From assembly GCA_030650095.1 (NCBI GenBank), contig JAUSEE010000002.1, positions 70,711 to 115,335 of the forward strand: a stretch of 44,625 bases of DNA, written 5' to 3'. Under the pieces are notes generated by a model that saw nothing but the letters and a program-made list of their open reading frames with translations, did no database searches and was not told the origin of the DNA. This document shows, in pieces, positions 14,008-44,625 of the stretch. The DNA comes from Candidatus Buchananbacteria bacterium (GTDB lineage: Bacteria; Patescibacteriota; Patescibacteriia; 2-01-FULL-39-33). Numbering within the stretch: the first letter of the stretch is position 1; the number at the start of each line of letters is the position of its first letter. Position numbers and translations under genes: made by a program.

Positions 14008-14033
14008 AAGCTCCGCCAGTCGGAGCTTTTTAT
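14008..14033 (+). terminator. Intrinsic terminator of hpf
   Basis: aaagctccg-ccagt-cggagctttttt-like hairpin with T-tract. Confidence 0.8.
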
Positions 14034-14171
14034 AATGTTGCTGCCCGAATACCCCTGGCTTTTAAGCCAGGGGATGAAGGGCAGTATGAGGAGAAATACG
14101 TCGGCGGAGCCGACACCCTCCATTTGAAACCGCCCAGATACCCCGCTCTTTAGAGCGGGGGCGGGTTCATT
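14031..14171. mobile_element. Three-hairpin dispersed element, copy 1 (candidate non-autonomous IS200/IS605-like element)
   Basis: Near-identical to 21690-21831 and to most of 44467-44575. Hairpins CCCCTGGCT-TTTA-AGCCAGGGG (inside CTGCCC/GGGCAG), GTCGGC-GGA-GCCGAC and CCCCGCTC-TTTA-GAGCGGGG. Confidence 0.75.
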
Positions 14172-21691: not shown

Positions 21692-21831
21692 ATAATGTTG
21701 CTGCCCGAATACCCCTGGCTTTTAAGCCAGGGGATGAAGGGCAGTGTGAGTAAAAATACGTCGGCGGAGCCGACACCTTCCATTTGAAACCGCCCAGATA
21801 CCACGCTCTTTAGAGCGGGGTCGGGTTCATT
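21690..21831. mobile_element. Three-hairpin dispersed element, copy 2
   Basis: Near-identical to 14031-14171, with the same three stems. Confidence 0.75.
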
Positions 21832-30040: not shown

Positions 30041-30045
30041 AGTGT

Positions 30046-30152
30046 CATAAGTAAAACTTATCCGCAGACAGTGGGCATAAAAATAAGACCTGCCGAGGAA
30101 ATAAAGCTAATTTTAGCTAATTCTATGCGTCTGCTGGTAAAGCAGATTTTTT
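30046..30152 (+). promoter_or_regulatory. Ribosomal protein L10 leader RNA with terminator-like hairpin
   Basis: Structured leader upstream of rplJ. GCAGAC (30064-30069) can pair with GTCTGC (30129-30134); the alternative hairpin TCTGCT-GGTAA-AGCAGA is followed by TTTTTT. Confidence 0.75.
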
Positions 30153-30177
30153 ATTATTAATAAGTGTATATAAAAAT

Positions 30178-44466: not shown

Positions 44467-44575
44467 TTATAATGTTGCTGCCCGAATACCCCTGGCTTTT
44501 AAGCCAGGGGATGAAGGGCAGTGTGAAGAGAAATACGTCGGCGGAGCCGACACCTTCCATTTTCAATCGCCCAGA
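44467..44575. mobile_element. Three-hairpin dispersed element, copy 3 (right hairpin diverged or missing)
   Basis: ttataatgttgctgcccgaatacccctggcttttaagccaggggatgaagggcagtgtgaagagaaatacgtcggcggagccgacaccttccatttt, matching copies 1 and 2; the third stem is lost. Confidence 0.75.
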
Positions 44576-44625
44576 CCTGCCCGCCATTGCCGTCTCTATT
44601 TTTTCTTAAAAACAAATTAGTTTTA

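Follow-up and report, generated by a model that had tools for sequence, protein, structure and literature searches.

A 137-bp repeat with putative guides at both ends in a Candidatus Buchananbacteria genome, very probably a non-autonomous transposon of the IS200/IS605 kind

The window analysed here is a stretch of 44,625 nucleotides (contig C13:70711-115335 of genome G000, a Candidatus Buchananbacteria bacterium; the window ends where the contig ends). It carries three copies of an element that is very probably a non-autonomous single-strand transposon of the IS200/IS605 kind, that is, a palindrome-associated transposable element (PATE) moving by the mechanism proposed below. This reading rests on copy number, defined edges, insertion at TTTAT, empty sites in relatives, covarying ends, the match between guides and cleavage sites, and relatedness to TnpA-bearing elements. 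The same identity had been named in the original prediction, and it is supported by the guide/cleavage complementarity and the lack of a target duplication (PMC5934647). In one small Patescibacteria genome of 1.16 Mb, about 40 sites are taken by a 137-bp element, and the family to which it belongs spans many host families.

A BLAST search of the host genome (1.16 Mb, 62 contigs) detected 40 copies in both orientations, 33 of them full length and seven carrying about 101 additional bases that separate position 108 from 109. The 23-mer of the right-end hairpin also occurs 40 times in this genome, and its reversed control does not occur (0). Flank divergence among the 40 copies sets the length at 137 bp; the sequence runs from AATGTTG to GGGTTCAT, and TTTAT stands nearly always directly 5' of it. 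In the window, the copies and all their parts described below lie on the + strand. Copy 1 occupies 14034-14170, delimited by flank divergence and by an empty site in the congener G002, and copy 2 (21694-21830, likewise 137 bp) lies upstream of mutM. Copy 3 (44471-44625) is a long form, 238 bp when complete, in which 101 bp are nested at the foot of the right end; this insert starts at 44576 and the contig end cuts the copy. The three near-identical copies first predicted are therefore real and in place, with edges that had been set too wide (141 bp in place of 137 bp, and copy 3 starting at 44467). The third, placed there at 44467-44575, is no truncated relic; it is the long form interrupted by the contig end.

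Presence and absence at orthologous sites was compared among relatives found in a pattern scan, which are Candidatus Buchananbacteria genomes (Patescibacteria). The hpf-secA region of G002 lacks copy 1 and reads GGAGCTTTTTA/GATTGCAAATAATC, compared with GGAGCTTTTTAT-element-TATTGCAAATAATC in the window; the flanks are joined at the predicted site, and this empty site is exact and shows no target duplication. Copy 1 is also absent from the congener G001, and no element lies upstream of mutM, the site of copy 2, in either G001 or G002. In a reciprocal case, G001 has a 177-bp copy immediately following TTTTTTTAT, in the interval from the ribosomal protein L10 leader to rplJ, and the present window holds the empty site. 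The leader itself (RF00557) maps to 30044-30163 of the window; the G001 element follows it directly, before rplJ. Empty sites in relatives, which had been proposed as a check on mobility, thus exist in congeners, and the copies do not all occupy orthologous positions. An empty-site comparison attempted for a copy in the more distant carrier G349 found its two flanks not syntenic in relatives. Insertion takes place 3' of TTTAT without target duplication, and a bias towards intrinsic terminators was not significant (11/40 copies versus 16/111 intergenic TTTAT sites, p = 0.09).

The folding energy of copy 1 in single-stranded form has a z-score of -7.7, and 0/200 shuffles were as good. Each end consists of an inner stem, an internal loop that holds the guide (GAATA or GATA) and an outer stem; the two end hairpins of the original prediction are each longer than was stated there. 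The left-end imperfect palindrome (14041-14084) has the outer stem CTGCCC/GGGCAG, the internal loop GAATA/ATGAA and the inner stem CCCCTGGCT-TTTA-AGCCAGGGG. The comparison took in congener copies and three TnpA elements; over its 13 distinct sequences, 99.5% of cells are paired and 9/15 pairs changed on both sides, and no shuffle reached the same covariation score. The right-end imperfect palindrome (14126-14168) is built from the outer stem GAAACCG/CGGGTTC, the internal loop CCCAGATA and the inner stem CCCCGCTC-TTTA-GAGCGGGG, with 93.3% of cells paired and 11/15 pairs changed on both sides. Both palindromes are near-terminal and imperfect, and terminal inverted repeats are absent. Between them lies the middle hairpin B (14100-14114, GTCGGC-GGA-GCCGAC), nearly invariant within the genus and covarying in other families, with a conserved core around it.

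A further helix, P1, connects the two ends. The left terminus T-AATG (14033-14037) pairs with CATTT (P1', 14121-14125), the bases just before the right hairpin, and the pairing shows long-range covariation over 17 distinct family sequences. The variants TAATG/CATTA, TTATG/CATAA, TTACG/CGTAA, TTAGG/CCTAA and TTAAA/TTTAA occur; 89.4% of cells pair, and one pair appears in all four Watson-Crick types with 17/17 sequences paired. Naive complementarity between the left terminus and the right-end foot is confounded by runs of T and A, and pairs were counted at fixed positions instead. The two windows are short and were positioned visually with a constant offset, the first base being the last T of the flank and its partner lying a fixed distance after the middle hairpin; the resulting covariation score was reached by no shuffle and no slid version. 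Minimum free energy folding does not show this short helix. P1 may bring both cleavage sites together, and as a long-range pairing between the two ends it lies outside the picture of IS608 in the source used here (PMC5934647).

For the guides, base 1 was compared with site base 2, base 2 with site base 1 and base 4 with site base 4, the last pairing being our assumption, drawn from the IS608 sequences. In IS608, 4-nt guides 5' of the hairpins recognise the cleavage sites (CL TTAC with GL AAAG, CR TCAA with GR GAAT), and A16 contacts T-3 and A17 contacts T-4 (PMC5934647). By this code, the putative left guide AATA (14048-14051; +15 to +18 of the element) is complementary to the putative left cleavage and target site TTAT at 14030-14033 (PMC5934647). 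This site is counted as outside the element and precedes 40/41 copies with a complete flank; flank conservation ends one base beyond it. The left guide predicts TTnT, with a full match to TTAT in 35/44 copies; about eight copies have a perfected left palindrome and no usable guide. At the other end, the putative right guide GATA (14137-14140) predicts TCnT, and the element ends in the putative right cleavage site TCAT (14167-14170), with a full match in 24 copies and one G-T pair in 14.

The fourth guide base covaries with the fourth cleavage base across families (A-T 24, G-C 3, other 3). An element of G057 (L183), for example, combines the left guide AATG with the flank TTAC and the right guide GATG with TCAC. 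The first two guide pairs of the right end are ambiguous, because the C/T of the right cleavage site also pairs, and covaries, in the outer stem (GAACCCG/CGGGTTC, AAACCCG/CGGGTTT). T follows the insertion site at +1 in 39/44 copies. This agrees with the base preference known at +1 in this family, where C is found in about 70% for IS608 and G in about 90% for ISDra2 (PMC5934647). The cross-family covariation amounts to a natural experiment on the IS200/IS605 guide code.

The host genome encodes two full IS200-type TnpA genes (L031, L032), fragments at contig ends and a RAYT-like gene (L033). L031, L032 and L033 were rejected as the source of the element, as their end hairpins differ. No TnpA with the exact ends of the element was found in the assembly of the host genome, and none with the right-end tip of this genome among 380 genomes of the phylum. 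In G001, the left end of a TnpA element (L106) reads TTTTAT-GTCGCA-GAATA-hairpin-ATGAA-TGCGAC and follows the 44-nt plan of the element, its right end being lost at a contig end. This TnpA matches the structures of ISHp608 and related TnpA proteins as well as NCBIfam NF033573. TnpA genes in G291 and G330, with 71-79% identity to L106, have the same left plan, and this 44-nt architecture including GAATA/ATGAA is common to the TnpA elements of all three genomes. Just 3' of tnpA, both the G291 and the G330 IS200-type elements carry ATACTGCGGTCTTTAGACCGCAG, a 23-mer identical to the right-end hairpin of the G001 copies. With up to two mismatches allowed, G001 has 13 occurrences of it, located where its copies end on the right, and none of the reversed control. 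Ends in common with a TnpA-bearing element hence hold for the copies of the congener G001, and TnpA-bearing elements with the same kind of ends, which were expected in the lineage if the prediction was right, are present (G001, G291, G330).

At a separate locus of G005 (L108, about 1890-1955 in tnpA orientation), the sequence after a TnpA gene consists of GTCGGC-GTA-GCCGAC, then a right-end hairpin and then GTTCATT. This order equals hairpin B plus the right end of the element and, judged from sequence, hints at where the element may have originated.

As had been suggested for relatives, we searched with a covariance model, built from 17 copies of the genus, and obtained full-length matches in 16/381 genomes of the class, distributed over 14 genera. 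The family plan comprises TTTAT, the left hairpin, the middle hairpin GTCGGC-GGA-GCCGAC (with compensated variants), the right hairpin, and TTCAT or TTTAT. One copy from another family of the class (L177 in G153) has left and right hairpin tips as in the G000 copies and unlike the other copies of G153, possibly a horizontal transfer of the subtype. In the literature searched (open-licence papers only), we found no description of such a family in Patescibacteria; the new aspects are its wide distribution, ends that are bipartite and covary, the helix formed over a long range and the fact that its transposase is missing.

Within the class sample, TnpA of the L106 type and the element co-occur in the own genus only. 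A Y1 transposase is present in the host genome and in G001, and 7/13 carriers outside the genus gave no Y1 hit. Among the TnpA/RAYT loci of the other carriers, none was found to bear the signature of the element, a gene having been placed in all but six loci. One carrier without a Y1 hit, G349, contains at least eight copies, with 99% identity between two of them. Assembly often loses IS genes that are present in many copies, and because the carriers are draft genomes, a missing Y1 hit is not proof of absence. Since these seven carriers include the one with the 99%-identical pair, we leave the general mobiliser of the family unassigned; carriers in which no Y1 transposase is recognisable allow a direct test of how the element is moved and by what.

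In the proposed mechanism, the + strand of the element would become single-stranded, presumably during replication, and the left and right imperfect palindromes would fold. An IS200-type Y1 TnpA, provided in trans, would bind them. Each guide, located at the foot of its hairpin, would pair with its site, AATA on the left with the flank TTAT and GATA on the right with the end TCAT. TnpA would then cut 3' of TTAT and of TCAT, the element would leave as a circle, and the circle would be inserted 3' of another TTTAT. The single-stranded intermediate and the identity of the acting TnpA are part of this proposal. Mobilisation in trans by an IS200/IS605 TnpA is likewise something we infer, because the host assembly holds no exact-end TnpA and Y1 is not detectable in 7/13 distant carriers. 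More tentatively, the elements could form a distinct and ancient class of non-autonomous single-stranded DNA transposons, in which a conserved global fold of left hairpin, middle hairpin and terminus-foot helix pre-assembles the cleavage sites and, in genomes without Y1, a transposase not yet recognised acts; we consider this rather unlikely.

The strong conserved fold, the covariation of all helices across many families, including the long-range one, and the conserved core around hairpin B would also suit a structured RNA or cis-regulatory element present in many copies, with selection acting on the fold of the RNA and mobility being secondary. We regard this as improbable: Rfam gave no match at the element (RF00557, the sole match in the window, lies elsewhere), copies occur in both orientations, flanks diverge exactly at TTTAT and after TCAT, empty sites exist, most of the G001 copies, which are near-identical, have a nested REP that breaks up hairpin B, and the match of guides and cleavage sites is not explained by a role as RNA. 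Movement by another kind of transposase, either as an ordinary MITE of a DDE enzyme with terminal inverted repeats and target duplication or by, e.g., IS607, would accommodate the several carriers without Y1, and IS607 elements also have neither terminal inverted repeats nor duplications (PMC6188088). However, neither feature of a DDE MITE is seen, and a 5' flank fixed as TTAT, together with guides that match at both ends, agrees with Y1 chemistry, which makes this explanation very unlikely. That the element is a repeat of the REP/BIME type which the genome's RAYT (TnpA-REP) has spread is hardly credible, for although a RAYT-like gene is encoded with GTAG-type palindromes beside it and the G001 copies contain such a REP, no copy of the element has a REP end or, at the foot of a 20-40 nt palindrome, a GTAG or CGTC tag of its own, the REP is a nested insertion confined to G001 copies, and the end palindromes match IS200-type TnpA elements rather than RAYT flanks.

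Taken as a PATE, the element has its closest known system in the haloarchaeal PATEs, the palindrome-associated transposable elements of Haloquadratum walsbyi (PMC3119063). Both have no transposase, near-terminal IS605-like palindromes, neither terminal inverted repeats nor target duplication, and a high copy number (PMC3119063). Terminal-only derivatives of about 50 bp and small repeats nested inside palindromes, known from PATEs (PMC3119063), have counterparts here in a 48-bp single-hairpin form and in nested REP or CCTGCC palindromes. In contrast to PATEs, the present element belongs to a different phylum, has three hairpins in fixed order with bipartite stems and a covarying long-range helix (a feature examined in the present family alone), and reaches 14 genera by the covariance model.

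Like IS608 (ISHp608) and ISDra2, it has subterminal imperfect palindromes on a single strand and 4-nt guides that lie 5' of the hairpin feet and match CL and CR; it inserts 3' of a short target, which stays in the left flank, and shows a +1 base preference (PMC5934647). The left guide lies at +15 to +18 here and around +16 in IS608, and in either case the left hairpin is followed by A and T. The element differs from IS608/ISDra2 in having no tnpA or tnpB, TTTAT as target and a guide in an internal loop closed by a covarying outer stem. REPs linked to RAYT are likewise non-autonomous palindromic DNA connected with Y1-type transposases (PMC8266576), whereas the present element has no GTAG tag, a length of 137 bp, two different end palindromes and a TTTAT target, the nested REP being a separate element. 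The RAYT-like gene of the host genome (L033:1310-1858, G000:C62) is flanked by GTAGAGACG...CGTCTCTAC palindromes and has an orthologue in G001 (L112).

Several copies are composites or altered forms. The amplified, near-identical copies of G001 (L050-L061, e.g. L051:1504-1680) contain a RAYT-type REP (GGTAGAGACGGGGCATGCCCCGTCTCTACC) inside hairpin B, which is disrupted in most of them, and hairpin B seems dispensable, as the REP replaces it there. The same copies carry a CCTGCCTGCCGGCAGGCAGG palindrome at the right-end foot, and this composite has been amplified as a whole. In the long form, the 101-bp insert (window 44576-44625; also L036, L037, L038, L039 and L040) is positioned at AGA^TACC, as is the CCTGCC palindrome of G001, and the common position suggests an insertion hot spot or shared ancestry. 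In L022, L026-L030 and L045, several of which lie at contig ends, the left palindrome is perfected (GAATA to TTCAT), suggesting template switching or an assembly artefact. Finally, a 48-bp derivative that has both termini but just one hairpin (L043:301-348; G000:C26:30900-30947) resembles the terminal-only PATEs of Haloquadratum.
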